Below, one piece after another: positions 4,904 through 19,179 of a stretch of DNA of 64,000 bases; within the stretch, counting starts at the first letter, position 1, and every line of letters begins with the position of its first letter. The stretch comes from Haloprofundus salilacus (GTDB lineage Archaea; Halobacteriota; Halobacteria; Halobacteriales; Haloferacaceae). The DNA lies in the NCBI RefSeq assembly GCF_020150815.1, contig NZ_CP083723.1:1426001-1490000 (forward strand). Reading direction: 5' to 3'. Position numbers and translations under genes: made by a program. The notes beneath the pieces are model-generated. The model saw only the letters and a program-made list of their open reading frames with translations, had not been told where the DNA came from and did no database searches.

Positions 4904-7018
4904 TTACTCGCGGTCCGTCTGTCCGGCCTTCGGTGCAGAGCGCCCCGAGAGTCCGAACACCGAGCGAATCGTCGCGATGGGTTTCGGTCGCCCGACGCTC
5001 GACTGGACGACATACATCAAGATAGCGGCGCCGACGGCGGCAAACTGCACGGTCCGCGAGGGGTGAAGCATCGCGAGCACGCCAGTCGCGAAGAACGCGA
5101 TGCGCGCGCCGAGAGTAATGGGTCGCCCGAACGCGAACCGGTAGTTGATGCCGTGGATGATGGCCACCGCGCCGAGCAGCGCGAGCGCCCCGGACGTGAG
5201 CGACAGCGAGTCGAACTCCGAGGAGACGATCTCGGGGTGATAGACGAACACGAACGGGAGCACGAACAGCGGCGCGGAGATTTTGATCGCCTCCACGCAA
5301 CTCTTCCAGAAGTCGCCGCCCGCGATCCCGCACGCCACCGCGACACAGGTCGCGATAGGCGGCGTGAGTCCCGCGAGGATAGCTGCGTAGAAGACGAAGA
5401 AGTTGCTGGCGAGTTCGGGTAGGAAGAACTGGTTGGTCAGCGTCGGCGCGATGAGCAGCGCGACGATGGTGTAGGACGCCGTCGTCGGCATCCCCAGTCC
5501 GAGGACGATACAGATGATCATCGCGAGGATGGCGGCGAACAGCAACACGCCGCCGGAGAGGTCCATCAGCGTGAGCGAGATGGCCGTCGGGACACCCGTC
5601 GTGGTGAGGATGTCGACGACACCGTTGATGGCTGCGAGGATGATGGTCACCGGTGCGAGCACGATGACACCCTCGCGTGCACCGTTGAGCGTCTCCCAGA
5701 CGACGCGCAGGACTGCTTCAACCGGAGTCTCGTCGGCCACGCCGACTGCGGCCTGCACGATGGGGATGAGCGTGCCGGTGAGCAGCATCGCGGTGGCCGT
5801 CCACAGCGCCGCAGTCATCACCGTCACCTGGATGATGCCCAGCAGGTAGATGAGGATGGCGAGCGGGAGGCCGTACTTCACTACCTCCGTGAGGAACTCG
5901 GCGCGGGGCATCGGCTCGGAGATGAGTCGCTCGGGATCGGTGTTGTCGAGCTGGGGGACGGAGACGTAGTGGACCGCCACGAAGATGGTCACGCAGAGGA
6001 TGACCGCCGGAATCAGTCCGGCGACGATGACGTCCGCGTAGGTGATCCCCGTGATGAGCGAGGCCATGATGAACGCGCCCGCGCCCATCACCGGCGGGAG
6101 CACCTGTCCAGCCGTCGACGCGACCGCCTCAATGGCGCCCGCAGTCTCTGGTTTCATGCCGTTTCGCTTCATCAGCGGGATGGTAAACGAACCGGTCATC
6201 CCCGCGTTCGCGGTCTGGCTCCCGTTGACGGAGCCGATGACCGCACTCGAGAGCACCGCGGTCTGTGCGATGCCGGAGTCGATGTACCGCGCGGAGCGGA
6301 ACGCGATCCGCATGATGAGGTCGAACGCGCCGTACGCCTTCAGGAAGCCGGCGTAGAGGAGGAACAGCGCGATCCACGCCGCGACGAGTCGCGTCAGGAA
6401 CCCGAAGAAGCCATCGACGCTGATGACGACCGTCCGTAGGATGCGCTCGATGCCGAGACCGCCGTGTTCGAGCGGTCCGGGGGCGTACATCCCGAAGTAG
6501 CCGTAGGCGAAGCCGGCGAGGACGACGATGAGGAACGTCTGGCCGAACGACCGCCACGTGAGGTAGATGATGACGATACTGAACGCCGCGGCCATGACGT
6601 ACTCGTTCGGCAGTGCGCGCCCGGCGCGGTCGATGGCGACCGCCTGGTAGTTGACGAACAGGTAGCCACAGGTCCCGGCGACGACGACCGACGAGATTGA
6701 CAACGGAACCGTGTCGACGAGGTTCTCGCGGCTGAACGCGCGTTTCAGGTCCGCGCCGAACCGCTCCCGTCCGCCGCCCGCAAGCGACATAATCTCCATG
6801 AAGATGTACAGTTCGAGGATTCCGCCGAGGAAGAGGACGCCGTACTGTCCGCGCGGCATCATCTGGCTGTAGGCGTACCAGATGACCACGCCCCAGAAGA
6901 GGACCGAAAATAGGATGAAGACGTTGCGCATCGACAGCAACTCGGCGTCGCCCGGTTGCTCCTGGTCGATTTTGTTTTCGGTACTCGGTTCGGCGCCGCT
7001 GACGTTCGCCCCGCTCAC
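4904..7018 (-). CDS. TRAP transporter fused permease (DctQ-DctM type, TAXI class)
   Basis: Large membrane protein of 704 residues. After a polar N-terminal stretch come about four helices of the small-permease (DctQ-like) part, then the 12-helix DctM part with conserved segments such as SAVIGSVNGSQTANAGMTGS and LGLGMPTTASYTIVALL. Fused permeases of this length partner with TAXI solute-binding proteins, and one is encoded 107 nt upstream on the same strand. Family knowledge: Na+-driven, high-affinity uptake of organic acids. The small DUF1850 subunit often found between the two genes is absent. The context points to import of the substrate of the CoA-ester enzymes encoded upstream. Confidence 0.92.
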   Translation of the reverse strand: MSGANVSGAEPSTENKIDQEQPGDAELLSMRNVFILFSVLFWGVVIWYAYSQMMPRGQYGVLFLGGILELYIFMEIMSLAGGGRERFGADLKRAFSRENLVDTVPLSISSVVVAGTCGYLFVNYQAVAIDRAGRALPNEYVMAAAFSIVIIYLTWRSFGQTFLIVVLAGFAYGYFGMYAPGPLEHGGLGIERILRTVVISVDGFFGFLTRLVAAWIALFLLYAGFLKAYGAFDLIMRIAFRSARYIDSGIAQTAVLSSAVIGSVNGSQTANAGMTGSFTIPLMKRNGMKPETAGAIEAVASTAGQVLPPVMGAGAFIMASLITGITYADVIVAGLIPAVILCVTIFVAVHYVSVPQLDNTDPERLISEPMPRAEFLTEVVKYGLPLAILIYLLGIIQVTVMTAALWTATAMLLTGTLIPIVQAAVGVADETPVEAVLRVVWETLNGAREGVIVLAPVTIILAAINGVVDILTTTGVPTAISLTLMDLSGGVLLFAAILAMIICIVLGLGMPTTASYTIVALLIAPTLTNQFFLPELASNFFVFYAAILAGLTPPIATCVAVACGIAGGDFWKSCVEAIKISAPLFVLPFVFVYHPEIVSSEFDSLSLTSGALALLGAVAIIHGINYRFAFGRPITLGARIAFFATGVLAMLHPSRTVQFAAVGAAILMYVVQSSVGRPKPIATIRSVFGLSGRSAPKAGQTDRE

Positions 7019-7125
7019 ACGACGTCACCTCCGACGCTCTCTGTCGATTCTCCGCACTGCCGCTGGTCGTCGTTTTCGTGTGTATGCATTGTTCCTGAGA
7101 TGTTCAAAAACGGGTTGTTACGAGG

Positions 7126-8205
7126 CTATTCGTTCGTTTCGCCCTTCGTCCACTCGTCGTTCCAGACGTCGTTCTCCTCCCAGTATTCGGCGACGCCGGG
7201 GTGGACTTCGAGGTCCGGAATCACCGCCTGCGTCATCGACTCGACGCCGGAGTGGTCGAGCGCGGTCGGGTCCGACTCCTGGATGGCCTCCCAGTGTTCG
7301 CTTGAGAGGCGAGCGACCTCCTTGGTCGCTCCCGCCGGGACATCGGGACCGAACGCCCACTGACCGGCGAGCGCCCATGAGGTGACTTTGTCGGTCACCC
7401 GCGTCACGTCCTGCTCCCAGCCGTACGGTTCGAACTCGGTGAGGAGCGCGCCGGGGGTGTCCTCGATGGCCTGTCGGAAGTTGTCGTCGACCTCGATGGC
7501 GTAGAGCTCGCCGTTGCTGCGCACGTCGACCTCTTGCACCCAACTCGAGAGTTCCTTCCCGTTGGCGCCGTAGATACAGAGTGCGTCGGCTCTGCCTTCT
7601 TCGACGGCACCGGCAATGTCGCTCGTGTCGAGGTTGAGGATGTCGTTCTGCTCCCAGAGACCCGCTGTCCGGATGACCTCCTCGGTCAGCAGTCGCGTAC
7701 CGAAGCCGGGTTGGATGGGATAGATAGTGTAGCCGCCCTCCGCGAGGTCGGCCGTCGACTCGATACCCGACCCCTCCATCGCGACCCAGTAGATCTCGAG
7801 GCTGGTGAAGATGAACCCCTGCATCGGCATGCTGTCGACAGGGTCGTCTGCGAACGGTCCCTCCTCGTTCATCGCCTTCGACAGCGAGTTGTTGTCGACA
7901 CCGATGCTCGAGAGGTTCCCACCGTCGAACTCGTAGAGGTTCGCCGTCCACCCGTCGGTCACCTGCACCGAGATGTCGAGGATGTCGCTGTGCTGACTCG
8001 CCGCCCGTGCCAGCGCCTGCCCGGCCTGCTGCGTGGAACTTCCGGACGACGTCCCGCCGATGACGATCTCGTAGCTCTCTCCGTCTCCGCTCCCGTCACC
8101 GCCACCGCCGCCGCCGATATCGGTACAGCCGGCGACACCGATTACACCGAGGGTTGTCGCCCCTTTGAGTACGTCACGTCTGTTGATACGCTGGTCGTCA
8201 GTCAT
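7126..8205 (-). CDS. TAXI-family TRAP transporter solute-binding lipoprotein
   Basis: Protein of 359 residues. It has a twin-arginine lipoprotein signal (RR at 9-10, hydrophobic stretch, lipobox GVAGC with Cys27), then a Gly/Ser-rich linker, so the mature protein is lipid-anchored outside the membrane. The body carries TAXI features: IVIGGTSSGSSTQQAGQALA near the N-terminus and a long alpha/beta region similar to type II periplasmic-binding folds. It delivers an organic anion to the fused permease encoded next. A strong TATA box 27 nt before the ATG shows that the transport pair has its own promoter. Ligand not determinable from sequence. Confidence 0.92.
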   Translation of the reverse strand: MTDDQRINRRDVLKGATTLGVIGVAGCTDIGGGGGGDGSGDGESYEIVIGGTSSGSSTQQAGQALARAASQHSDILDISVQVTDGWTANLYEFDGGNLSSIGVDNNSLSKAMNEEGPFADDPVDSMPMQGFIFTSLEIYWVAMEGSGIESTADLAEGGYTIYPIQPGFGTRLLTEEVIRTAGLWEQNDILNLDTSDIAGAVEEGRADALCIYGANGKELSSWVQEVDVRSNGELYAIEVDDNFRQAIEDTPGALLTEFEPYGWEQDVTRVTDKVTSWALAGQWAFGPDVPAGATKEVARLSSEHWEAIQESDPTALDHSGVESMTQAVIPDLEVHPGVAEYWEENDVWNDEWTKGETNE

Positions 8206-8226
8206 GCGGAACGTAAATTATTGTTC

Positions 8227-8237
8227 CTTTATTTAAG
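8227..8237 (-). promoter_or_regulatory. TATA box for the TRAP-TAXI transport operon
   Basis: On the minus strand CTTAAATAAAG, centred about 27 nt before the ATG at 8205, in an AT-rich patch. The spacing predicts a leaderless transcript covering the binding protein and permease. Confidence 0.6.
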
Positions 8238-8317
8238 CCTGCCGTCCTCGTCAGTTTCTTCGGGGATTTCACCCCGTCAACGGCCGCGATTTCTTCGCTT
8301 CCGAGTGAACCGTCATG

Positions 8318-9763
8318 TCACTCGAGCCACGAGTTCGCGGCGTCGGCGTCGAAGGGGACGTGCCCGTCGCGTTCGAGCGCTCGGTCGCGGTACGCGCGGA
8401 GGCGCTCGCGGAAGTCGGGGTGGGCCACCTCGACGAGCGCGTCCATCCGCTCGGCCGGACTCGCCCCGCGGAGGTCCGCGACGCCGTACTCGGTGACGAC
8501 GACGGAGTGATCGTGTTCGGTGTGGTCGACGTGCGACACCTTGGGGACGATTCGCGAGATGTCGTCGCCGCCCGCCGTCGACGGGAGCGCGATGATCCCC
8601 AGTCGGCAGTTTCGGTTGAAGTCACCGCCGCCGCCGATACCGTTGACGACCTGCGTGCCGCCGATATGCGTGGCGTTTGCGTTACCGTAGAGGTCGACGT
8701 CCACCGCGCTGTTGACGCCCACGACGCCGAACTGCTCGATGAGCGCCGGGTTGTTCGAGACGTCCGCCGGGCGCAGCACCACGTCGTCGGCGTAGCGGTC
8801 GATCTCCTCGAACAGCCGCTCTTGGCCCTCCAGCGACAGCGCGAGAGACGTCGCGCTCGCCCCCGAGAGCAATCCCTCGTCGAGCGCGTCCAGAAGTCCG
8901 TCCTGGAACACCTCGCCGAAGTAGACGACCTCTCGGTCGCCGAAGTCGATGCTCGAGAGCTCGCCCATGAGGGCGTTGCCGAGGCTGCCGACGCCGAACT
9001 GGAGGTGGACGGCCTCCGCGAGCGTCGGGTCGCGCTCCAGTTCTGCCTCCAGGAACGTGCCGAGTTCGTCGGCGATGGCGAGGTCCGCGTCGGTGGGGTC
9101 GCGGAACTCGTAGGGGTCGTCCGCCCGGTCGGTCTCGACGACCGCGACGAGTTTCTCGGGGTCGAACTCGACGCGCGCCGATCCGACGCGCTCGGTCGGT
9201 TCCGACACCGGAATCGGGTCGCGGTTCGGCGGGAGGTCGCGCTGGTAGACGTCGTGGACGCGTTCGAGCGCCCGCGGCTGGGCGCTGTTGACCTCCACGA
9301 CGAGACGGTCGGCGGCTGAGACGAACGACGGCGTGTGGCCGATGGAGGTCGAGGGAACGAGCCAGTCCTCGCCGACGGTGACGGCTTCGATGACCGCCAC
9401 GTCGGGGTGGCCGAGGTGACCGAGGCGCACCTCGTCGCCGAGCCGGGAGATGTGGCGGTCGTGGAACTCGACGCGCCGCTCATTGATGGCCTCGCGGGAG
9501 GCGCGCCGCGTCTGGAACGGGTAGCGACGGGCGAGTTTCCCCGCCTCGATGAGCACGTCGTCGACCTCGCCGCCGACGCCGCCGCCGGAGACGACCGTCA
9601 GCGACATCTCGCGGTCGCCCTCGGCGGCCGCGACGAGGACGCGTTTGGGGTAGCCTACGCCGCCGAAGCCGCTGACGAGCACCGTATCGTCGCTGCCGAC
9701 GTGTTCGGCGGCCGCCTCGGCCGAGACGACCGGGAGGCCGTCGGCGATGCGGTCGCGGGTCAT
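8318..9763 (-). CDS. Class I CoA-transferase (acetyl-CoA hydrolase/transferase family)
   Basis: Protein of 481 residues from the ATG at 9763, which overlaps the preceding stop as ATGA; longer starts give an Arg-rich tail and are rejected. Family features: VVSGGGVGGEVDDVL near the N-terminus, the region YFGEVFQDGLLDAL with the likely catalytic Glu, the nucleotide-binding GIGGGGDFNRN and the C-terminal VTEYGVADLRG. Such enzymes (Cat1, 4-hydroxybutyrate CoA-transferase, Yersinia RipA) move CoA from acetyl- or succinyl-CoA to a carboxylic acid. It is translationally coupled to the MaoC gene and probably activates the imported acid. Exact donor and acceptor unknown. Confidence 0.88.
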   Translation of the reverse strand: MTRDRIADGLPVVSAEAAAEHVGSDDTVLVSGFGGVGYPKRVLVAAAEGDREMSLTVVSGGGVGGEVDDVLIEAGKLARRYPFQTRRASREAINERRVEFHDRHISRLGDEVRLGHLGHPDVAVIEAVTVGEDWLVPSTSIGHTPSFVSAADRLVVEVNSAQPRALERVHDVYQRDLPPNRDPIPVSEPTERVGSARVEFDPEKLVAVVETDRADDPYEFRDPTDADLAIADELGTFLEAELERDPTLAEAVHLQFGVGSLGNALMGELSSIDFGDREVVYFGEVFQDGLLDALDEGLLSGASATSLALSLEGQERLFEEIDRYADDVVLRPADVSNNPALIEQFGVVGVNSAVDVDLYGNANATHIGGTQVVNGIGGGGDFNRNCRLGIIALPSTAGGDDISRIVPKVSHVDHTEHDHSVVVTEYGVADLRGASPAERMDALVEVAHPDFRERLRAYRDRALERDGHVPFDADAANSWLE

Positions 9764-10419
9764 TCGCCGCCCGACCCGTCGTCGGGTTCGGGGTTCTCCG
9801 GCTGCGTGCCGATGCCCTCGGGCCACCCCGGCGGCTGCGCGGCGCTCGGCTGGGCGTACTCGCGCTTCAGCACCATCGGCGTGCGCTCCATCGACAGCAC
9901 CTTCGTGCCCTCCTGGTTGTACGCCCGCAGTTCCGTGGTGACGATGCCGACGTGGTCGCGCGAAGAGCTCTTGCGCTTCTCCAGCACCTCGCTCTCGGCG
10001 AAGATGGTGTCGCCGTGGTACACGGGCGCGTGGTGGCGAATCCGGTCGTAGCCGAGGTTCGCGGTAGCGTTGACGGAGACGTCGATGACGCTCATCCCGA
10101 CGGCGAGCGCGATGACGAACGTGCCGTCGACGAGCCGCTCGCCGAACTCCGTTTGAGCGGCGTACGCCTCGTTGAAGTGCATCGGGTTGAGGTTCATCGT
10201 GACGTTCGTCATCCAGACGTTGTCCGTCTCGGTGACGGTGCGGCCGAACGGGTGCTTGTAGACATCGCCGACGGTGAAGTCCTCGTAGTAGCGGCCCTGC
10301 CAGCCCTCGACGAGGCGCGTGTCGGTCGTTTCATCCTCGTCAACTCCGCCGTCGGTTGCCGGCGTGAGGTCGGTCGTCGGCGTCGGTTCGTGCGTCGAAT
10401 CGGTGAGTTCGTCTGTCAT
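9760..10419 (-). CDS. MaoC-like hot-dog hydratase, itaconyl/mesaconyl-CoA hydratase type
   Basis: Protein of 219 residues. An acidic, Thr-rich N-terminal tail (1-38) precedes one hot-dog domain. The hydratase-2 motif appears as NLNPMHFNEAYA (Asp/Asn-Pro-His type). The preceding RTVTETDNVWMTNVTM and the later GIVTTELRAYNQEG resemble the MaoC proteins that hydrate itaconyl-CoA or mesaconyl-CoA in Pseudomonas and Mycobacterium clusters. It overlaps the CoA-transferase gene by 4 nt and lies 30 nt after the acyl-CoA dehydrogenase, so all three are likely one operon. The C-terminal tail after residue 195 is Pro/Gly-rich. The family is clear; the substrate is inferred. Confidence 0.85.
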   Translation of the reverse strand: MTDELTDSTHEPTPTTDLTPATDGGVDEDETTDTRLVEGWQGRYYEDFTVGDVYKHPFGRTVTETDNVWMTNVTMNLNPMHFNEAYAAQTEFGERLVDGTFVIALAVGMSVIDVSVNATANLGYDRIRHHAPVYHGDTIFAESEVLEKRKSSSRDHVGIVTTELRAYNQEGTKVLSMERTPMVLKREYAQPSAAQPPGWPEGIGTQPENPEPDDGSGGE

Positions 10420-10449
10420 TGGTTGGTTTCGGTGTGTTCGCTGTCGGTC

Positions 10450-11706
10450 TCAGTACGACCGGGGGAGGTCGAGCACGTTCTCCCCGAGGTAGTTCAGCGC
10501 GAGTTCCTGCGTGATGGGGACGAGGCGCGTGAGCCGTGCCTCCCGGAAGTATCGCTCCACGTCGTACTCGCGGGCGACGCCGCGGCCGCCGTGTGCCTGA
10601 ACGGCCGCGTCCGCGGCCTCGAACGCCGCTTCCGCGGCGAGATACTTCGCCGTGTTCGCCCACGCGCCGACGGCCTTTCGGTCCTCGTCGCCGGTGTGCG
10701 TTGCCGCGTCGAAGGTGAACTGCTTGGCGGCCTGCACCCGGGTGAAGGCGGCCGCCAGCGGGTGTTGGATGCCTTGATTCTGTCCGACGGGCCGGCCGAA
10801 CACCTCGCGGTCACGGGCGTAGGCGACGCCCTTTTCGAGCGCGAGTTCGCCGAGTCCTACTGCCTCGGCGGCGATGACGAGGCGCTCCTCGTTGAGTCCG
10901 TCGAGGACGTGGTAGAAGCCGCGGCCCTCCTCGCCGATGAGGTTCCCCGCCGGGATGCGGAGGTCGTCGTAGGTGACGCGGAAGGAGCTGACGACGCCGC
11001 TGACCGTCTTCTCTATCTCTTCGAGAACGATGCTCCCCTCCTCGACGCCGCGCTCGATGTCGACGAGGAACAGCGAGACGCCCTCGGTCTTCTTCTCGAC
11101 CTCCTCGCGGGGCGTCGTCCGGGCGGCGAGCACAAGGTAGTCGCTCACGTCGATTCGGGAGGTCCAGAGCTTCTCGCCGTTGACGACGTACTCGTCGCCC
11201 TCCCGAGACGCGTCTGCGTCTCGGGGGTCAGCCGGGGTCTCCTCGGCGGAGGCGCGGACGGCCCGCGTCGTCATCGCCGTCGAGTCCGACCCCGCCTCCG
11301 GTTCGGTGAGGCTGAAACACTGGATCCACGCGTTGCCGTCGGCGACGCGGGGGAGCAGTCCCTCCTTGAGCTCGTCGCTGCCGTACTTGACCAGCGGCGC
11401 GGAGTTGTAGATGGCGGCGTGAACGCTCTGCGCGCCGCTGAAGCCCGCGCCGCTGGCGGCGATCTCGTGCATCATCGCCACGGCCTCCTCGGTTCCGTAC
11501 CCCTTCCCCCCGTACTCCTCGGGGAGGAGCACGCCGAGCCACCCCTCGGCGGCGAGCGCGTCGACGAACTCATGGGGGTACGCCCCCTCGGCGTCGTGTT
11601 CGCGCCAGTAGGCGTCGTCGAACCGGCGACAGACCTCACGCACCTCGTCGCGAACGGCCCGCTGCGTCGGCGTGAGCGCCAGTTCGCGCTCGAAGTAATT
11701 CACCAT
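10450..11706 (-). CDS. Acyl-CoA dehydrogenase, with helix-G type catalytic Glu
   Basis: Protein of 418 residues from the ATG at 11706 (MVNYFERELALTP); the upstream extension is basic and not family-like. The FAD/acyl-CoA signatures are present: WIQCFSLTEPEAGSDSTAM (about 128-145) and the C-terminal VQAHGGRGVAREYDVER. The usual base motif YEGT is replaced by VPIT (396-399). Instead ERL with Glu274 is present (LNEERLVIAAE), the place of the catalytic Glu in isovaleryl-CoA and long-chain acyl-CoA dehydrogenases. It oxidises a CoA-thioester at C2-C3 and passes electrons to ETF. In this operon it would act on a CoA-activated branched acid. Confidence 0.9.
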   Translation of the reverse strand: MVNYFERELALTPTQRAVRDEVREVCRRFDDAYWREHDAEGAYPHEFVDALAAEGWLGVLLPEEYGGKGYGTEEAVAMMHEIAASGAGFSGAQSVHAAIYNSAPLVKYGSDELKEGLLPRVADGNAWIQCFSLTEPEAGSDSTAMTTRAVRASAEETPADPRDADASREGDEYVVNGEKLWTSRIDVSDYLVLAARTTPREEVEKKTEGVSLFLVDIERGVEEGSIVLEEIEKTVSGVVSSFRVTYDDLRIPAGNLIGEEGRGFYHVLDGLNEERLVIAAEAVGLGELALEKGVAYARDREVFGRPVGQNQGIQHPLAAAFTRVQAAKQFTFDAATHTGDEDRKAVGAWANTAKYLAAEAAFEAADAAVQAHGGRGVAREYDVERYFREARLTRLVPITQELALNYLGENVLDLPRSY

Positions 11707-11832
11707 CGTTCGTGCAAGTCCGTGAACCGAGCATAAACGTGCGGGTGGGATACGATTCCTGCCACTTCTCAACGACCGGAGACGACGGCGACGGCGGGAC
11801 TGTTTCGGAGCGGTGTCGGACGAGTCGCCCGC

Positions 11833-13287
11833 TCACCCGCTCAGCGCGCGCAGGGCGTCGTACGGCGCGTCGCCGCTCCGTCCCAGTTCGCGGCAAGCCT
11901 CGAGCGCCGCCGTCGCTGCCTCGGGGTCGCAGTCGGCCGCGGTGGCGAGTTCCTCGAACTTCCGCGCGACCGCCTCCTCGGAGAGCGGGCACTCGGGTTC
12001 ACCTCGAGCGTGCTCGACGAATCGTTCGTGCGTTCCCGACTCGGTTTCGACTTCGACGCCCGCGGCCCACGTTTCGGGGAACCGCAATCGAGTGCGGTCG
12101 GTCGTGGTCACCGTCGTCGCGTCCATCAGACGGCGGAGTTCGGGGTCGTCGAGTCTGTCCTGCGCGTCCAGAAACGCCGACAGCCCCGCATCCCCTTCCG
12201 TGAGCACGAGCGCGGCGGCGAACGGCATGCTGAACTGGCAGTCGACGAAGTTCGACGGCCGCCGCTTTGCGTCGATGGGGTCGCCGGTGAGCGTCACGCC
12301 CGACGCCGGGAGGTCGACGCGCACGGCCGTCACGTCGGCGGGGTCGACCGCATCGGCCAGGTCAAGCAGGCCGTCGATTGCTGCATGGGTGTATCGACAG
12401 CAGGGGTACGGTTTCAGCGCCGTCCGGAGAAGCGCGCGCCCCGGTTCGAGGTCGACGAGGCGTTCCGGCTCCGCGTCCTCGGTGTACCCGGCGAAGAAGC
12501 CGTTGTCGCCCTCGAGAGGCGCGGCCGCGCCGCGGAAGCCGCTCGCCGCGAGTTCGGCGGCGACGACGGCCCGCGAGGCCGCGAGGCCGGGGTGGAGCCG
12601 CTTGTTCCACGCGCCGTTTTCGAGGAACTGCAGCAACCCGGCGGCCTGACTCCCGTTGACGCCGAACGCCGACGCGAGTTCGTTCTGCGAGAGGCCGCGG
12701 AGACGCCCCGCCGCGGCCGTCGCGCCGAACGTCCCGCAGGTCGCCGTGATGTGAAACCCCCGTCCGTAGTGAGCGTCGGGGTTGACCGCTCGCCCGAGCG
12801 CGCAGGCCACGTCGTAGCCGACGACGATGGCTGTCGCCAGTTCCTCGCCGTTCGCGCCCTCGGCCTCGCCGACGGCCAGCGCGGCCGAGACGACCGGCGC
12901 ACCGGGGTGAAGCGAGGACGCCCGGTGCGTGTCGTCGAAGTCGAGGCTGTGCGCGTAGGTGCCGTTGGCGAGCGCGGCGCGGTCCGGGGCGAGTCGCGCA
13001 CCCGACGAGAGGTCCGTCGCGAGGCCGTCTCCCGGAGAACCCACGTGGGAAGCGACTTCGCCGTCGCCGGTCGGTCGCCGACCCCCGGCGAGCGCGTCGA
13101 CGGCCGCCGAGATGCTATCCGAGGATTCCGCGAGCGACGCCCCGCCGACGACGAGGCCAGTCCAGTCGGCGAGATACTTTCCGACGGCCGCTCGAACGTC
13201 CGCGGAGAGGTCGGAGAACTCGGCGTCGAGCGCGTGCGCCGCGAGCCGTTCGGCGGCCGTACTGACGTCAGTTCGGTCGGTGCTCAC
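11833..13287 (-). CDS. MmgE/PrpD family protein (methylcitrate dehydratase / cis-aconitate decarboxylase fold)
   Basis: Protein of 484 residues, full length for the family. The conserved active-site blocks are all present: HSLDFDDTH, HPGAPVVSAAL, GFHITATCGTFGA, WNKRLHPGLA and KPYPCCRYTH. They supply the Asp, His, Lys and His residues known to be catalytic in cis-aconitate decarboxylase and PrpD. Family reactions are 2-methylcitrate dehydration, cis-aconitate decarboxylation to itaconate, or epimerisation. No methylcitrate synthase or methylisocitrate lyase gene is nearby, so a plain methylcitrate cycle is not supported here. Its start overlaps the SDR stop as ATGA, showing operon coupling. 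Confidence 0.88.
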   Translation of the reverse strand: MSTDRTDVSTAAERLAAHALDAEFSDLSADVRAAVGKYLADWTGLVVGGASLAESSDSISAAVDALAGGRRPTGDGEVASHVGSPGDGLATDLSSGARLAPDRAALANGTYAHSLDFDDTHRASSLHPGAPVVSAALAVGEAEGANGEELATAIVVGYDVACALGRAVNPDAHYGRGFHITATCGTFGATAAAGRLRGLSQNELASAFGVNGSQAAGLLQFLENGAWNKRLHPGLAASRAVVAAELAASGFRGAAAPLEGDNGFFAGYTEDAEPERLVDLEPGRALLRTALKPYPCCRYTHAAIDGLLDLADAVDPADVTAVRVDLPASGVTLTGDPIDAKRRPSNFVDCQFSMPFAAALVLTEGDAGLSAFLDAQDRLDDPELRRLMDATTVTTTDRTRLRFPETWAAGVEVETESGTHERFVEHARGEPECPLSEEAVARKFEELATAADCDPEAATAALEACRELGRSGDAPYDALRALSG

Positions 13288-14087
13288 GGCGACATCCCCC
13301 CGAGCCAGCCGCCGTCGAGCGCGAGCGTCTCGCCGGTGACGTAGTCGGCCGCGGGCGACGCGAGAAAGGCGACGGCTCGGCCGAACGACGGCGGTTCGCC
13401 GAGGGCTCCCACCGGCAGTTCGGCAGCGCGGCGCTCGCCGGTCTCCGCGACCGAGATGTCATCTCTTTCGGCGAGCAGGCGAATCTTCTCGTCCAGTCGG
13501 TCGGTGACGATGCCGCGGGGGCAGACGCAGTTGACGCGGACGCCCTCAGGTCCGTACTCGTTCGCGAGGCTCTTCGAGAGGGCGTAGATGCCCGGCCGGA
13601 ACGCCGCCTGTAACACGTCGCCGGGCAGCGGTTCGGCGGCGGTCGCGGAGACGACGTTGACGACCGACCCCCCGTCGCCGTCGGCGAGGTGCGGGAGCGC
13701 GGCGCGGAGCGCGACCACGGTGCTCCGGAGGACGCGCTCGTAGGTGCGGTCGAGCGTCTCCACGTCGGTCTCCGCGATGGACTGGACGGGCGGGCCGCCG
13801 TGGTTCGTCACGAGCACGTCGAGACCCCCGAACGCGTCGACGGCGGTGGCGACCGTCTCCTCGATGGCCGTCGGGTCGGCGAGGTCGCAGGTGAAGGTTT
13901 CCACCGCCGCAGTGTCGCCGCCGGCGGCCTCGACGAGGTGGTCGCGGGCGTCGGCGAGGTTGTCGGGGTCGCGCGAGGCAATGGCCACCCGCGCTCCCTC
14001 GCAGGCGAGTTCCGCCGCAGCGGCGCGGCCGAGTCCCTTGCTCGCAGCGAACAGCAGTGCGCGCTGGCTGTCGAGTCCGAGGTCCAC
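13284..14087 (-). CDS. SDR-family oxidoreductase (3-oxoacyl-reductase-like)
   Basis: Protein of 267 residues. The cofactor loop is AASKGLGRAAA (residues about 14-24), a variant of TGxxxGxG seen in part of the family. NHGG and the active-site Ser (VNVVSATAA) follow, then YALSK with the Tyr-x3-Lys pair and the long FabG-like tail ending in DYVTGETLALDGGW. It is an NAD(P)-dependent alcohol/ketone oxidoreductase in the cytoplasm. It sits 2 nt after the UspA gene and overlaps the MmgE/PrpD gene by 4 nt, so it belongs to the same operon, perhaps oxidising a hydroxyacid or hydroxyacyl-CoA intermediate. Confidence 0.87.
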   Translation of the reverse strand: MDLGLDSQRALLFAASKGLGRAAAAELACEGARVAIASRDPDNLADARDHLVEAAGGDTAAVETFTCDLADPTAIEETVATAVDAFGGLDVLVTNHGGPPVQSIAETDVETLDRTYERVLRSTVVALRAALPHLADGDGGSVVNVVSATAAEPLPGDVLQAAFRPGIYALSKSLANEYGPEGVRVNCVCPRGIVTDRLDEKIRLLAERDDISVAETGERRAAELPVGALGEPPSFGRAVAFLASPAADYVTGETLALDGGWLGGMSP

Positions 14088-14089
14088 GG

Positions 14090-14524
14090 TCAGTTCGCGA
14101 CGAAGACCGGTCGGTCTCCGTCGAGGATGACGCCTTGGGTGATGCTGCCGAACACCGCTTTGCCGACCGGGCTGCGCTTCCTGGCGGCGACGAGTATCGC
14201 GTCCGCGTCGAGTTCGGCGGCGGCGTCGAGAATCGTCTTGACGGGGTCGCCCCGCGTCGTCGCCGAGTCGGTCGGAACGCCGAGCGCTTCGAGTTCGGAG
14301 ACCGCGCGCCCGACCGTCTCGGGGACGCCCTGCAGCGACTCGATGTCCTCGTTGACGGCGTCGATTATCGACCGCCCGGCCTCGTCCGCCGGGGCGTCGA
14401 TCTCCTCGTGGACGTGGAGCACCGTCACCGCGAGGTCGTCGCGTCCGGGGAACTCCCTGAGCGTCCGAAACTGGGCGTCGAACCGGTTGTCGTCGCCGTC
14501 GACTGGCATGAGAATGCGATACAT
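14090..14524 (-). CDS. Universal stress protein, UspA family
   Basis: Protein of 144 residues with the single UspA alpha/beta domain. It opens with MYRILMPVDGDD and ends with an ATP-binding signature, ARKRSPVGKAVFGSITQGVI (about 116-135), of the type G-2x-G-9x-G-S/T in altered form. Usp proteins bind ATP and help cells under stress; in haloarchaea they are often placed at the head of transport or catabolic operons. Here it is the first gene of the minus-strand operon running through SDR, MmgE/PrpD and the CoA-ester enzymes, with a TATA box about 29 nt upstream. Confidence 0.87.
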   Translation of the reverse strand: MYRILMPVDGDDNRFDAQFRTLREFPGRDDLAVTVLHVHEEIDAPADEAGRSIIDAVNEDIESLQGVPETVGRAVSELEALGVPTDSATTRGDPVKTILDAAAELDADAILVAARKRSPVGKAVFGSITQGVILDGDRPVFVAN

Positions 14525-14547
14525 GACCCCTGAATCGTGAACAATCG

Positions 14548-14557
14548 GTTATTAACT
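14548..14557 (-). promoter_or_regulatory. TATA-like box for the UspA-SDR-MmgE/PrpD operon
   Basis: On the minus strand GTTAATAACC, centred about 29 nt before the UspA ATG at 14524. It lies in a 97-nt divergent promoter region shared with the VOC gene, which has its own weaker AT patch near 14594. Confidence 0.5.
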
Positions 14558-14621
14558 ATTCGTCCGCGGCGGGGGTCGCAGCGACGGGAACGCTTATGCG
14601 AGCGACGCGGGACCCTCTGCC

Positions 14622-14999
14622 GTGACGAACGACATTATCCACACGGCGCTCCGGGTGTCCGACATCGACGCGACGGTCGCGTTCTACGTCGACGGTCTCG
14701 GTCTCGAACGGAACTGGGAGTTCACGAAAGATGGCGTTCGTAACGTCTACGTCGGCGGCGAACACTGCGATTTCCAGTTCAAGTACGATCCCGAGGGCGA
14801 CGACGCGACCGGTCCCGGCGGCGGCTTCGACCACCTCGCCGTCGGCGTCGACAGCACCGACGAGGCGTTCGAGCGTCTTGTCGACCGCAGCGACCCGCCG
14901 GTCGTGACCGAACCGACGACGATAGAGCGGATCGACCGCCGGGTCGCCTTCGTCGAGGACCCCGACGGCTACGTCGTCGAACTCGTCGAGCGGCTCTGA
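14622..14999 (+). CDS. VOC-family (glyoxalase-like) protein
   Basis: Protein of 125 residues from a GTG start. Two beta-alpha-beta-beta-beta modules are visible: IIHTALRVSDIDATVAFYVDG and FDHLAVGVDSTDEAFERLV, ending in YVVELVERL. Likely metal ligands are His7, Gln52 (the Glu position of GloA), His71 and Glu120, close to the glyoxalase I pattern. Members act as lactoylglutathione lyases, epimerases or dioxygenases, so a methylmalonyl-CoA epimerase-like or detoxifying role is possible. It is divergent from the UspA operon. A ring-cleavage/glyoxalase-like gene also occurs in Pseudomonas itaconate clusters, which makes the position notable. Confidence 0.82.
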   Translation: MTNDIIHTALRVSDIDATVAFYVDGLGLERNWEFTKDGVRNVYVGGEHCDFQFKYDPEGDDATGPGGGFDHLAVGVDSTDEAFERLVDRSDPPVVTEPTTIERIDRRVAFVEDPDGYVVELVERL

Positions 15000-15018
15000 C
15001 GGCGTCGCTACCGTATTG

Positions 15019-15402
15019 TTACGTCTCCTCTTCGGGCGACCACTCGCCGCCGACGCGGTCGGCACCCATCAGGTCGTGCCCGTCGTGTTCGGTGAAGACG
15101 ACCTTCACGTTCAGTCGCGGAACGTCCCACTCCGCTTCCAGCCAGTCGACGACTGAGAGCGCGAACGTCCGTCGGCGCTCGAACGACCGTCCCCGTCGGA
15201 TATCCGCGTTCAACACCGCTATCGGCCCGTCGACGGCGCGGCCGAGCGACATCGCCGCCGGAGGGTGCTTTCTGACGGCGACGGCGACGTGGCCCGTGGT
15301 CGTGGCCATCTCTTCCGTGTAGAGCCGCGTCAGCGACTCCGTGCAGGCGCGTCGTTCGTCGGCAGTCGGTTCGTAGGTGGTATCGAGCGCGAGATACGGC
15401 AT
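15019..15402 (-). CDS. MIF-like tautomerase superfamily protein
   Basis: From the ATG at 15402 the protein starts Met-Pro-Tyr-Leu and has 127 residues. Pro right after Met, exposed once Met is removed, is the catalytic base of tautomerase superfamily enzymes. The later part VKVVFTEHDGHDLMGADRVGG resembles the end of MIF (beta strand then N/D-GxxW-like segment). A start at 15444 would bury the Pro and add a basic tail, so it was not used. The substrate is unknown; keto-enol isomerisation of a dicarboxylic or aromatic 2-oxoacid would fit the neighbouring catabolic genes. It converges with the VOC gene. Confidence 0.68.
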   Translation of the reverse strand: MPYLALDTTYEPTADERRACTESLTRLYTEEMATTTGHVAVAVRKHPPAAMSLGRAVDGPIAVLNADIRRGRSFERRRTFALSVVDWLEAEWDVPRLNVKVVFTEHDGHDLMGADRVGGEWSPEEET

Positions 15403-15490: not shown

Positions 15491-16681
15491 TCAGTCTGCG
15501 GCGGCGACGACGTCTGCCGGCGGTTCGGTCCGGATGACCTGCACGACGAACACGGTCGCGACGAGCGCGAGTCCGCCGAGCATGAGCCAACTCGTCCGGT
15601 AGCCGAAGGTGTCCGCGAGATAGCCGAACGCCGGCGGCGCGACGAGCGCGCCCGAGGTGAGCGCCAACTGTCCGCCGCCGGTCGCCCCGCCCATCTCCTC
15701 CGCGGAGACGACCGTCGCCATGCAGGAGTAGTAGACGCCGGTGAATCCGAGCACGAAGAAACCGAGCACGACGAACGCCACCGCCGCGGCGACCGTCGTG
15801 TCGACGAAGGCGACGACGACGAACAGCGCAGCGCTCGCCACTGTCTGCACGAGCAGAATCTTCGCGATACGTCGGCGAGGGTCGCCAGAGAGCGCGTCGC
15901 TCAGCCAGCCCGTGACGACGCGCCCGACGCTGCCGGACACCTGAAGCGCAGCGAGCACGAGGCCGCCGACGGCGACGGACGCGCCGACGGACTCTTCGAC
16001 GTAGAGAATCGTGTAGCCGGTCGTCGTGAACAGCCCCGCGCCGAGGAACGCGCCCGCCACCGTGAGCGAGCGGTACGGCCGGTTACGGAGCAGTCGTCGG
16101 AAGCTCGGAAACTTGGCGTCGCCGTCGGTCTCGGCACCGCGGTAAGCGAGCCAGAAGGCGACGGCGACGGCGAAACCGCTCGCCGCGGCAACGTAGAATC
16201 CGGCCTCCCAGAAGAGCACCCCCGCGATACCCGTGACGAGCAGCGCGCTCACCCCACTTCCGGCCGTCACGCCCACCTGCTTCACGCCAACGGCGAGGTT
16301 CTGTCGGCTCGTCGGGACGCTGTCGAATATCGCCTTGTTCGTCCCCGGCATCGCCGTCCCGTACAGCGACCCGAGCAGGAACGCGCCGACGAGCAGCGTG
16401 GCGTACGACCACGCGCCCGCGACGAGCACCGCGCCGACCGAGAGGCCGAGCAGACCGACCGTCAAGGTCCGCCGTTCGCCGAAGCGGTCGGTGAGCGCGC
16501 CCAGCGGGAGCAGAAAAACCGCGTAGCCGAGCGTCAGCGACGTCACGACGAGACCGACGGCCGTCCCCGAGAGGCCGAACTGGTCGCGGAAGAAGGGCGT
16601 CGCCGCGAAGACGGCGTAGTAACAGACGCTCGCGGCCAGTTGCCAGAGGAAAATGAGGGAGACGACGCGGCGGATATCCAT
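15491..16681 (-). CDS. MFS transporter
   Basis: Protein of 396 residues with about 12 hydrophobic helices. The cytoplasmic motif A between helices 2 and 3 is clear (GALTDRFGERRTL), and a related loop (GWLSDALSGDPRRRI) appears at the half-way point, as in 12-helix MFS permeases. A cytoplasmic loop with AETDGDAKFPSFRR separates the halves. Such proteins exchange small solutes or drugs using ion gradients. It lies between the tautomerase and the PurM-like gene on the same strand, but the gaps (88 and 103 nt) leave operon membership open. Substrate unknown. Confidence 0.88.
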   Translation of the reverse strand: MDIRRVVSLIFLWQLAASVCYYAVFAATPFFRDQFGLSGTAVGLVVTSLTLGYAVFLLPLGALTDRFGERRTLTVGLLGLSVGAVLVAGAWSYATLLVGAFLLGSLYGTAMPGTNKAIFDSVPTSRQNLAVGVKQVGVTAGSGVSALLVTGIAGVLFWEAGFYVAAASGFAVAVAFWLAYRGAETDGDAKFPSFRRLLRNRPYRSLTVAGAFLGAGLFTTTGYTILYVEESVGASVAVGGLVLAALQVSGSVGRVVTGWLSDALSGDPRRRIAKILLVQTVASAALFVVVAFVDTTVAAAVAFVVLGFFVLGFTGVYYSCMATVVSAEEMGGATGGGQLALTSGALVAPPAFGYLADTFGYRTSWLMLGGLALVATVFVVQVIRTEPPADVVAAAD

Positions 16682-16784: not shown

Positions 16785-17801
16785 TCAGTCGGACTCGCCT
16801 TCGGCGAACGCCTCGTACACGGCCCACGACGGGTCGACCCGCGGATGTTCGGCTCGCTCTCCGTCGAGGTAGACGCCCGACCCCTCCGACACGGTTCCGG
16901 CGACGCCGACGGGCGTTCCGCGCGCTTCGAGCGCCGAGATCACGTCGTCGACGGCGGAGTCCGAGACTGTCACCACGAGCGTCCCCGAACTCGTCGCGTG
17001 CCACGGTTCGATGTCGAGGTACTCGCAGGTTTCGGCGATGCCCGGCCGCAGCGGAACCGCGTCGCGCTCGGCGTCGATGCGGACGCACGCGCTTTCGGCG
17101 ACTTCGCACAGGGCTCCTTGTAGCCCGCCCTCCGTCGCGTCGTGCATCGCGGTCACGCCGCCCGCCTCTGTGACGGCGCGGGCGTCGCGCACCGTTCGCG
17201 TCTCGTCCAGCCGTTCTCGGGCGTCGGCGAGCGTCGCTTTTGGGAGTTCCATCCGGTCGCCGAACAGCGTCGTGAGCAACCCCGTCGCCTCGACTGCAGG
17301 CCCCTTCGTGACGAGCACTCGGTCGCCGGGGCGCGCGCCGTCGGGGCGAATCACGTCGTCGCGGTCGCCGACCGCCAGCGCCGTCGCCGCGCCGACCCAC
17401 GGGAACGAACAACCAGTGTAGCGCGCAGTGTGGCCCGTGACGATGCTGATTCCCAACTCCCGCGCCTCGTCGTCTATGGCCGCCCAGAGTTCGGCGAACT
17501 GCTCGTTCGTCATCTCCGGCGGCAACGAGAAACTGATGGTGAGGTGCGACGGCGGAAGGCCTGACACCGCGACGTCCGAGAGGACGATGTGCAGCGCGAA
17601 CCGACCGGCGCGGTCGAAGCCGAGTTCCGAGAGGACGGAGAGGGGATCGGTGGCGAGCACGACGGCGGTACCGTCCACGTCGAGCATCCCGAAGTCGACA
17701 CCGTGTTTCGGGCCGAGCGCCACGTCGTCGCGGGTCGCGCCGAGGCGCGGATACAGATACTCGTCGAAGAAGTCGGGGTCGATCTTCCCGAGATCGGACA
17801 T
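16785..17801 (-). CDS. AIR synthase-related (PurM/HypE-like) protein
   Basis: Protein of 338 residues with the two-domain PurM architecture. The N-terminal half has DGTAVVLATDPLSV and DVAVSGLPPSHLTISFSLP, and the C-terminal half MHDATEGGLQGALCEVAE and TSSGTLVVTVSD. These are ATP-binding and dimer-core blocks of the AIR synthase/HypE/ThiL/SelD superfamily. HypE ends with a Cys that is carbamoylated; this protein ends EAFAEGESD without Cys, and no hydrogenase genes are nearby, so it is not a functional HypE. Probably an ATP-dependent enzyme of unknown substrate. Divergent from kynureninase. Confidence 0.78.
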   Translation of the reverse strand: MSDLGKIDPDFFDEYLYPRLGATRDDVALGPKHGVDFGMLDVDGTAVVLATDPLSVLSELGFDRAGRFALHIVLSDVAVSGLPPSHLTISFSLPPEMTNEQFAELWAAIDDEARELGISIVTGHTARYTGCSFPWVGAATALAVGDRDDVIRPDGARPGDRVLVTKGPAVEATGLLTTLFGDRMELPKATLADARERLDETRTVRDARAVTEAGGVTAMHDATEGGLQGALCEVAESACVRIDAERDAVPLRPGIAETCEYLDIEPWHATSSGTLVVTVSDSAVDDVISALEARGTPVGVAGTVSEGSGVYLDGERAEHPRVDPSWAVYEAFAEGESD

Positions 17802-17901
17802 ACGGGACGTGCGAACGCGGCGAGTAAAACGATGCCGTCATTCCGCTATGCCGGCTTTCCGCATCGCCCATCTCTATGGTCGCCGCCGCACAGTGTCGGC
17901 C

Positions 17902-19179
17902 ATGAGCGACTTCCCGCCCTGCAAGGCGGCCCGCGAGTTGGACCGTACCGATCCGCTGGCCGAGTTCGCCGACCGCTTCGAGATTCCCGACGGCCACTAC
18001 ATGGACGGCAACTCGCTCGGTCCCCTCTCCGAGGACGCCGAACGAAGCCTCCAACGCGTCGTCGACGAGTGGCGCGAACTCGCGATTCGCGGCTGGACCG
18101 ACGCCGACGAACCGTGGTTCAGCTACGCCGAGCGACTCGGGTCGATGACCGCGCCGCTCGTCGGGGCCGACGAGACGGAAGTCGTCGTCGCTAATTCGAC
18201 GACGGTGAACATCCACACGCTCGTCGGCACGTTCCTCGACGTCGTAGACTTGCCGACAGTGTTGGTCGACGACCTCGACTTTCCGACCGACCACTACGCG
18301 ATTCGCGCCCAACTGCGCCAGCGTGGCTACGACCCCGACGAGCACCTCGTGGCCGTCGAGAGCCGAGACGGACGAACCATCGACGAGGACGACGTCGTCG
18401 CCGCCATGGACGACCACGACCCGGGCATCGTCTTCCTCCCGTCGGTGCTCTACCGCAGCGGGCAGCTGCTCGACGTCGAGCGAATCACCGAGGCGGCGCA
18501 CGATCGCGACGTCCTCGCCGGGTTCGACCTCGCGCACTCGGTCGGCGCGGTCGACCACGACCTCTCGGGTGTCGGCGTCGACTTCGCCGTCTGGTGCGGC
18601 TACAAGTATCTGAACGCGGGTCCCGGCGCGATTGCGGGACTGTACGTCAACCGAGACCACTTCGGGACGACGCCGGCGCTCGCCGGGTGGTGGGGCCACG
18701 ACAAGGAGACGCAGTTCGACATGAACCTCACGTTCACCCCCGCCGACGACGCGGGCGCGTGGCAGATCGGGACGGTACCGATGCTCAGCGCCGCGCCGCT
18801 GGAAGGCTCGCTTCGGATGTTCGAGGAGGCCGGTATCGGGACCGTTCGCGAGAAGTCGCTCTCGCTCACGGGCTACCTCGTGGAACTCGTCGACGCGCTC
18901 GCGGACGCGGGCTACGACTGCGACGTCGGCACGCCCCGGGAACCGGACCGACGCGGCGGCCACGTCGCCGTCGAACACCCCGAAGCCTATCGGCTGAGTC
19001 TCGCCCTGAAGGAGCGCGGCGTCGTCGTCGACTTCCGTCCGCCGAACGTCGTCCGCGTCTGTCCCGCGCCGTTGTACACCAGCCACGTGGACGTGTGGGA
19101 GGTCGTCGCCGAACTCCGAACGCTGCTGGACGAAGAAGCGTACGAACGATTCGACCGGCAAGACGGCGGCGTGACGTAG
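17902..19179 (+). CDS. kynU: Kynureninase
   Basis: Protein of 425 residues from the ATG at 17902. It shows the aminotransferase class V fold with kynureninase traits: the N-terminal YMDGNSLGPLS, ANSTTVNIHTL around residue 100, FDLAHSVGAV near 208, and WCGYKYLNAGPGA with the PLP lysine Lys235. The GHVAVEHPEA segment is also typical. It cleaves L-kynurenine to anthranilate and alanine in tryptophan breakdown. No tryptophan dioxygenase or formamidase gene is in view, so the pathway is not clustered here. Divergent from the PurM-like gene (100 nt). Confidence 0.93.
   Translation: MSDFPPCKAARELDRTDPLAEFADRFEIPDGHYMDGNSLGPLSEDAERSLQRVVDEWRELAIRGWTDADEPWFSYAERLGSMTAPLVGADETEVVVANSTTVNIHTLVGTFLDVVDLPTVLVDDLDFPTDHYAIRAQLRQRGYDPDEHLVAVESRDGRTIDEDDVVAAMDDHDPGIVFLPSVLYRSGQLLDVERITEAAHDRDVLAGFDLAHSVGAVDHDLSGVGVDFAVWCGYKYLNAGPGAIAGLYVNRDHFGTTPALAGWWGHDKETQFDMNLTFTPADDAGAWQIGTVPMLSAAPLEGSLRMFEEAGIGTVREKSLSLTGYLVELVDALADAGYDCDVGTPREPDRRGGHVAVEHPEAYRLSLALKERGVVVDFRPPNVVRVCPAPLYTSHVDVWEVVAELRTLLDEEAYERFDRQDGGVT

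Follow-up and report, generated by a model that had tools for sequence, protein, structure and literature searches.

The locus and its gene products

The locus described here lies in a stretch of 64,000 nucleotides (nt) of the Haloprofundus chromosome, positions 1426001-1490000 of a 3.24-Mb contig, which is called the window below. It is transcribed from the minus strand in the order UspA, SDR, MmgE/PrpD, acyl-CoA dehydrogenase (ACAD), MaoC, CoA-transferase, TAXI and fused TRAP permease, and this gene order is also conserved in other genera. An initial annotation of this DNA had proposed a haloarchaeal pathway for itaconate or another branched dicarboxylate of five carbon atoms (C5). All the genes named there were recovered in place, and both of the claimed 4-nt overlaps are real (MaoC and CoA-transferase at 9760-9763, SDR and MmgE at 13284-13287). 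The SDR and UspA genes are separated by 2 nt and MaoC and ACAD by 30 nt; the gaps between TRAP and TAXI, TAXI and CoA-transferase, and ACAD and MmgE are 107, 112 and 126 nt, respectively. By eye, TATA-like elements were seen directly upstream of UspA on the minus strand (TTAATAA) and about 28 nt upstream of the ACAD start (TTTATG), which suggests that the block consists of at least two transcription units.

The MaoC-type hydratase is encoded at 9760-10419 (minus strand, as are all genes below unless stated otherwise). Its best NCBIfam model is NF038241 (RipB_Ich) with 181.6 bits against a cut-off of 340, compared with 356 for RipB of Paraburkholderia caribensis, and the Mch model NF041625 gives 91 bits. 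In the tree, where several inner forks are modestly supported, the protein groups with the bacterial Ich/RipB types of CitE clusters and with a haloarchaeal paralogue, MaoC2, far from the haloarchaeal Mch. The likeness to MaoC hydratases of bacterial itaconate clusters noted in the initial annotation is supported, and a mesaconyl-C4-CoA or itaconyl-CoA hydratase is predicted.

The adjoining class I CoA-transferase (8318-9763) is of the AarC/ScpC/Cat1 kind. It scores 484.4 bits with TIGR03458 (cut-off 658.7) and 475.8 bits with NF053853 (cut-off 500), in both cases below the cut-off. Its PDB matches to AarC/ScpC-type structures range from 4e-107 (2g39) to 1e-77, while RipA (4n8h) is matched at only 1e-23 over residues 250-456, in the C-terminal half; the identity to a RipA-type protein encoded on a plasmid is 32%. 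The earlier comparison with RipA was therefore abandoned. The segment FGEVFQDG aligns with the AarC stretch containing Glu294, and the catalytic Glu is kept.

The ACAD gene (10450-11706; PF00441, PF02771 and PF02770) is located directly next to the MmgE/PrpD gene (11833-13287; PF03972 and PF19305), and the two products are predicted to be a methylsuccinyl-CoA dehydrogenase and a methylsuccinate isomerase. The ACAD retains Glu274, which we take to be the Glu of the isovaleryl-CoA dehydrogenase type, and has Pro397 where presumably the usual Glu near the C-terminus, of the medium-chain acyl-CoA dehydrogenase type, would be found. This pattern is common to the cluster ACADs of Thermus, Deinococcus, Rhodococcus, Rubrobacter and Shinella, which are 41-48% identical to it; the ACAD of the Azospirillum cluster belongs to another lineage. 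The best PDB relative of the MmgE protein is IDS-epimerase (2hp3/2hp0, about 1e-36). All seven catalytic residues, His113, Asp116, His127, Tyr174, His179, Lys229 and Lys292, are kept, and the Tyr174-type residue is the conserved Tyr of the two-base isomerases. With this Tyr and this best match, a cis-aconitate decarboxylase was rejected; a 2-methylcitrate dehydratase was also rejected at 45 bits with the NCBIfam PrpD model (cut-off 950). The best bacterial match, at 42%, comes from a Shinella CitE-MmgE-ACAD-MaoC cluster.

The fused TRAP permease of the DctQM type (4904-7018; PF06808, 8.7e-52) reaches 374 bits with TIGR02123, above the cut-off of 320.65, which places it in the TAXI-TRAP fused-permease family. 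The TAXI substrate-binding lipoprotein (7126-8205) carries a Tat motif (RRDVLKG) and a lipobox (AGC), but its 60 bits with TIGR02122 are below the cut-off of 84.35. A sequence search of the PDB gave only a chance antibody match. The top seven PDB matches by Foldseek of the folded model, which is of moderate confidence (pLDDT 61.7), are all of the TAXI type, including VC0430/VcGluP and a Thermus TAXI, with E-values from 2e-12 to 9e-11. A literature search on TAXI in haloarchaea returned nothing relevant.

Occurrence and neighbourhood of MaoC in Halobacteria

The MaoC protein defines a sharp orthologue group, with matches of at least 70% identity followed by a drop to about 50%. Of the 292 Halobacteria genomes sampled, about 90, or roughly a third, carry an orthologue, and they are spread over many families. 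Partners were scored by tblastn within 6 kb of MaoC in 94 loci, the window and 93 other neighbourhoods. The class I CoA-transferase is found in 53 of these and directly adjoins MaoC in 50; ACAD is present in 48, MmgE in 39, TRAP in 25, TAXI in 23, an IclR regulator in 17 and a class III CoA-transferase-like protein in 16. ACAD and MmgE co-occur (Fisher 7e-6, a value that serves as a guide only, the loci being related). A TRAP permease stands beside TAXI in 25 loci. Among the loci with TAXI, the class I CoA-transferase adjoins MaoC in 25 of 25, and ACAD and MmgE are present in 22 and 15 of 25, respectively. In a sample of the family, 13 genomes have both the transferase and MaoC, two have MaoC alone, 27 have neither and none has the transferase alone, so that the transferase is confined to MaoC-positive genomes (Fisher 4e-9, uncorrected for relatedness). 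This restriction and the conserved gene order speak for a grouping beyond chance.

A second kind of glutamate mutase operon contains the same two genes. In four genomes of four haloarchaeal genera and three families (G018, G173, G259 and G052), MaoC and the CoA-transferase end an operon of the order mutS-mutE-mal-MaoC-CoA-transferase (loci L070, 6544-11843; L073, 6442-11822; L116, 7825-13069; L117, about 8207-13422), and two named contigs contain the same block. The MaoC proteins of the four operons are 70-80% identical to that of the window and the CoA-transferases 58-63%. Glutamate mutase (MutSE) and methylaspartate ammonia-lyase (Mal) convert glutamate to mesaconate. The product of the operon would therefore be mesaconate, and the genes that follow should activate it and hydrate mesaconyl-CoA. 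None of these four loci contains ACAD or MmgE, as expected if mesaconate is made inside the cell and there is no methylsuccinate to oxidise or isomerise. This linkage is the strongest clue to the substrate. No true Mch (NF041625) was found above the cut-off in G018, G173 and G259; that of G052 belongs to a distinct set which includes a further mutE, and the two mutE sets of this genome probably do different jobs and are not redundant. The five-gene operon is possibly an undescribed aerobic route from glutamate through mesaconate.

Other neighbourhoods are more varied. In L048, L051, L054, L056, L121, L140 and L165, MaoC stands in varied combinations with an acyl-CoA ligase, a class III CoA-transferase, thiolase, MmgE/PrpD and DHODH-like genes, suggesting that these variants serve another substrate. 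In L055 (11736-12536), L057, L134 and L145, MaoC and the CoA-transferase are adjoined by a protein of the Asp/Glu-racemase family with weak similarity to arylmalonate decarboxylase, which may act as a citraconate cis-trans isomerase. In Halomarina sp. BND7 (L262, 1171-3134) MaoC adjoins an annotated tricarballylate dehydrogenase, TcuA, on a plasmid rich in organic-acid catabolism, with MmgE/PrpD genes and a tartrate dehydrogenase nearby.

Of the remaining genes, UspA (14090-14524, PF00582) is the first of the minus-strand block and SDR (13284-14087, PF13561), presumably an accessory oxidoreductase, the second; they occur near MaoC in 13 and 12 of the 94 loci, respectively. The membership of the next two genes is uncertain. 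They are a divergent VOC protein of glyoxalase fold (14622-14999, plus strand; PF00903, 3.5e-16) and a MIF/tautomerase-superfamily protein with Pro after Met (15019-15402). The latter matches Pfam Tautomerase_2 at only E=0.011, and its model (pLDDT 66) matches the cis-CaaD/MIF family by Foldseek (E=2e-7, TM about 0.7). VOC and MIF belong to few loci (five and six) and add little. A role of the VOC protein as 2-hydroxyparaconate lactonase like PA0880 was set aside, its basis being a similar size and a guess at the fold class. An MFS transporter (15491-16681; PF07690, 6e-48) travels with MIF and TAXI in several genera. The AIR-synthase-like (minus strand) and kynureninase-like (plus strand) genes that adjoin the cluster at 16785-19179 were named by eye on the basis of their translations and are apparently unrelated.

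Bacterial relatives and the missing lyase

The bacterial homologues of MaoC at 50-59% identity are located in clusters with CitE and a CoA-transferase, often with ACAD and MmgE. The arrangement is CitE/MaoC-MmgE-ACAD-CoA-transferase in Azospirillum and MaoC-CoA-transferase-CitE in Amycolatopsis; Paraburkholderia has a CitE-ripB-RipA type, and in Shinella CitE-MmgE-ACAD is accompanied by a MaoC of another type. In Rhodococcus rhodochrous pGD02.2.1 (L259) the order is CitE-MmgE-CaiB-MaoC-ACAD-SDR. It has MmgE, CoA-transferase, MaoC, ACAD and SDR in one run like the block here, but the CoA-transferase is of class III, CitE is present and the stretch read contains no TAXI. Thermus thermophilus pAA2-2c (L251), with the order TRAP-TAXI-CitE and class I fumarase-ACAD-CaiB-MaoC, shares with the block TAXI-TRAP, ACAD and a MaoC of 59% identity; it differs by CitE, the class I fumarase and a CaiB/BaiF CoA-transferase, and by the lack of MmgE. 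The class I fumarase family has mesaconase activity (PMC4682846).

The itaconate-methylsuccinate cluster of Pseudomonas and Cupriavidus (PA0878-PA0886; Ict, Ich, Ccl, Mcd, Msi and TRAP) is a further close counterpart. Its MmgE/PrpD protein is a (S)-(R)-methylsuccinate isomerase and its ACAD a methylsuccinyl-C4-CoA dehydrogenase (PMC12290011; genetics in PMC9875883), and itaconate is imported by a TRAP system (PMC12599236). The methylsuccinate isomerase has been assigned to 1767 species, 96.2% of them Pseudomonadota (PMC12290011). The match of gene types noted in the initial annotation is borne out as a likeness of gene content: both have a TRAP importer, a CoA-transferase, a hydratase, ACAD beside MmgE/PrpD and a small VOC-type gene. 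The block here differs in having a class I instead of a class III CoA-transferase, a RipB-like single-domain MaoC, TAXI instead of a DctP-type TRAP, no linked lyase, the extra SDR and UspA genes, and in being archaeal. The Yersinia-type ripABC operon, in its Paraburkholderia caribensis copy (L256), likewise combines a class I CoA-transferase superfamily member with a RipB-like MaoC; the block has the AarC/ScpC type instead of RipA, no linked RipC, and ACAD, MmgE and TAXI in addition.

As the initial annotation had stated, no CitE-type lyase is present near the operon; the nearest lies about 87 kb away. Three PF03328 proteins are encoded in the genome. The natural candidate for citramalyl-CoA cleavage is a CitE of 280 residues, closest among PDB relatives to human CLYBL and also matching Rv2498c, with 193 bits in the RipC_Ccl model, below the cut-off. 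This type is near-universal in haloarchaea, and in several genomes its gene is close to that of MaoC2, which is about 44% identical to the MaoC of the window. MaoC2 and CitE may possibly be a housekeeping pair of citramalyl-CoA hydratase and lyase. In the window's own genome (L169, C1 at about 1520965-1523947) CitE is close to MaoC2, and here also to glutamate dehydrogenase genes.

The haloarchaeal methylaspartate cycle (MutSE, Mal, Mct, Mch and Mcl) has mesaconate chemistry in common with the proposed route, and sister loci of MaoC are joined to mutS-mutE-mal; the CoA-transferase class and the hydratase family are different. The window genome has no MutE and no NF041625 match above the cut-off, which rules out the cycle there and, with it, the suggestion that the cycle's lyase completes the pathway. 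Lacking MutE, this genome is expected to rely on an external supply of the substrate, in keeping with the TAXI-TRAP genes.

Proposed route, alternatives and significance

The block probably serves this haloarchaeon in the breakdown of a branched C5-dicarboxylate taken up from outside. Methylsuccinate is the most likely substrate, and mesaconate or itaconate may be used as well. TAXI-TRAP would import the diacid, and MmgE/PrpD would interconvert the methylsuccinate enantiomers. The AarC-like transferase would transfer CoA to the diacid from succinyl-CoA, the presumed donor, and ACAD would oxidise methylsuccinyl-CoA to mesaconyl-CoA. MaoC may then hydrate mesaconyl-CoA, in what we infer to be its C4 form, or isomerise and hydrate itaconyl-CoA, to (S)-citramalyl-CoA, which the unlinked CitE, about 87 kb distant, could cleave to acetyl-CoA and pyruvate. 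Sequence and synteny establish the gene families, the catalytic residues, the conserved linkage and the connection of MaoC and the CoA-transferase with mesaconate-forming operons of relatives, and from these the substrate, the regiochemistry, the CoA donor and the part of the distant lyase are deduced. The pathway class, a branched C5-dicarboxylate degraded through mesaconyl-CoA, is well supported by gene linkage in archaea and bacteria, as proposed originally. Itaconate as the main substrate did not hold up equally well, and methylsuccinate is our best guess because the pair of ACAD and MmgE is present. Any role of methylsuccinate in haloarchaea has been called doubtful (PMC5592240).

Several observations weigh against this reading. 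The curated equivalog cut-offs for RipB_Ich, RipC_Ccl, ScpC and TAXI are all missed, and glutamate is the ligand of every solved TAXI match for which one is named. ACAD is missing from the surroundings of MaoC in about 40 of the 94 loci, and the MmgE proteins of the loci fall in several subfamilies, 31-69% identical to that of the window. The AMP-ligase, thiolase and DHODH-like genes of some variant loci hint that MaoC has further uses, and SDR has no explained part in the route. CitE accompanies MaoC in just two of the 94 loci. The lyase is the weakest step, because a Halopenitus genome (G097) carries MaoC, CoA-transferase, ACAD and MmgE without an orthologue of that CitE.

It is unlikely that mesaconate or itaconate is the main imported substrate, with the CoA-transferase and MaoC as the core, CitE finishing the route and ACAD and MmgE only widening its range. 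The two core genes alone suffice downstream of mutS-mutE-mal, they adjoin in more loci than have MmgE, and the three-gene clusters of Paraburkholderia and Amycolatopsis contain neither ACAD nor MmgE; the operon in the window, however, keeps both, and they co-occur across the loci. We assign a rather small probability to a MaoC acting in the role of Mch. It could replace Mch in those mutE operons whose genomes have no true Mch, but the profile scores and the tree both separate it from Mch, and in G052 a true mutE/Mch set exists beside the five-gene operon, probably without redundancy.

The chance is smaller still that the locus degrades some other dicarboxylate, such as a related 2-substituted succinate, with ACAD, MmgE, MaoC and SDR acting on a larger homologue. 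The same MaoC orthologue group serves the mesaconate-forming operons, and the operon in the window has no thiolase or ligase, although such genes and DHODH-like ones occur in some loci, SDR is part of the operon, and the site of methylsuccinate isomerase could accommodate C3-substituted substrates of larger size (PMC12290011). A monocarboxylate route, such as the degradation of leucine, isobutyrate or butyrate, is hardly probable at all: the transferase does fall within the acetyl/succinyl/butyryl CoA-transferase superfamily and the ACAD has the Glu of isovaleryl-CoA dehydrogenases, but MmgE/PrpD and TAXI-TRAP would have no place in it, and the linkage to mutE-mal and the position of the bacterial homologues beside CitE lyases are against it.

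Returning to the external C5-dicarboxylate, its chemistry would be the same as in the known bacterial route; what differs is the CoA-transferase, the transporter, the lineage and the absence of a linked lyase. In the literature searched, no archaeal pathway of this kind was found described, in agreement with the novelty originally suggested. A broader picture, with somewhat less than an even chance of being correct, is that haloarchaea have a separate CoA-dependent route for branched C5-dicarboxylates in two modules: one fed by TAXI for external methylsuccinate or itaconate, the other linked to mutS-mutE-mal and degrading glutamate via mesaconate and citramalyl-CoA without recourse to the methylaspartate cycle. 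A class I CoA-transferase and a RipB-like hydratase would be the basis of both, and the lyase would come from the housekeeping MaoC2-CitE pair.

Direct testing is possible, since pure cultures exist for some carriers and genetic tools for relatives. Catabolism of itaconate and methylsuccinate has been described from bacteria, and a locus present in about one haloarchaeon in three would extend it to the Archaea. If the assignment is correct, an orphan family of TAXI transporters would also gain a substrate, and mesaconate, and hence glutamate, would have a second fate in haloarchaea beside the methylaspartate cycle.

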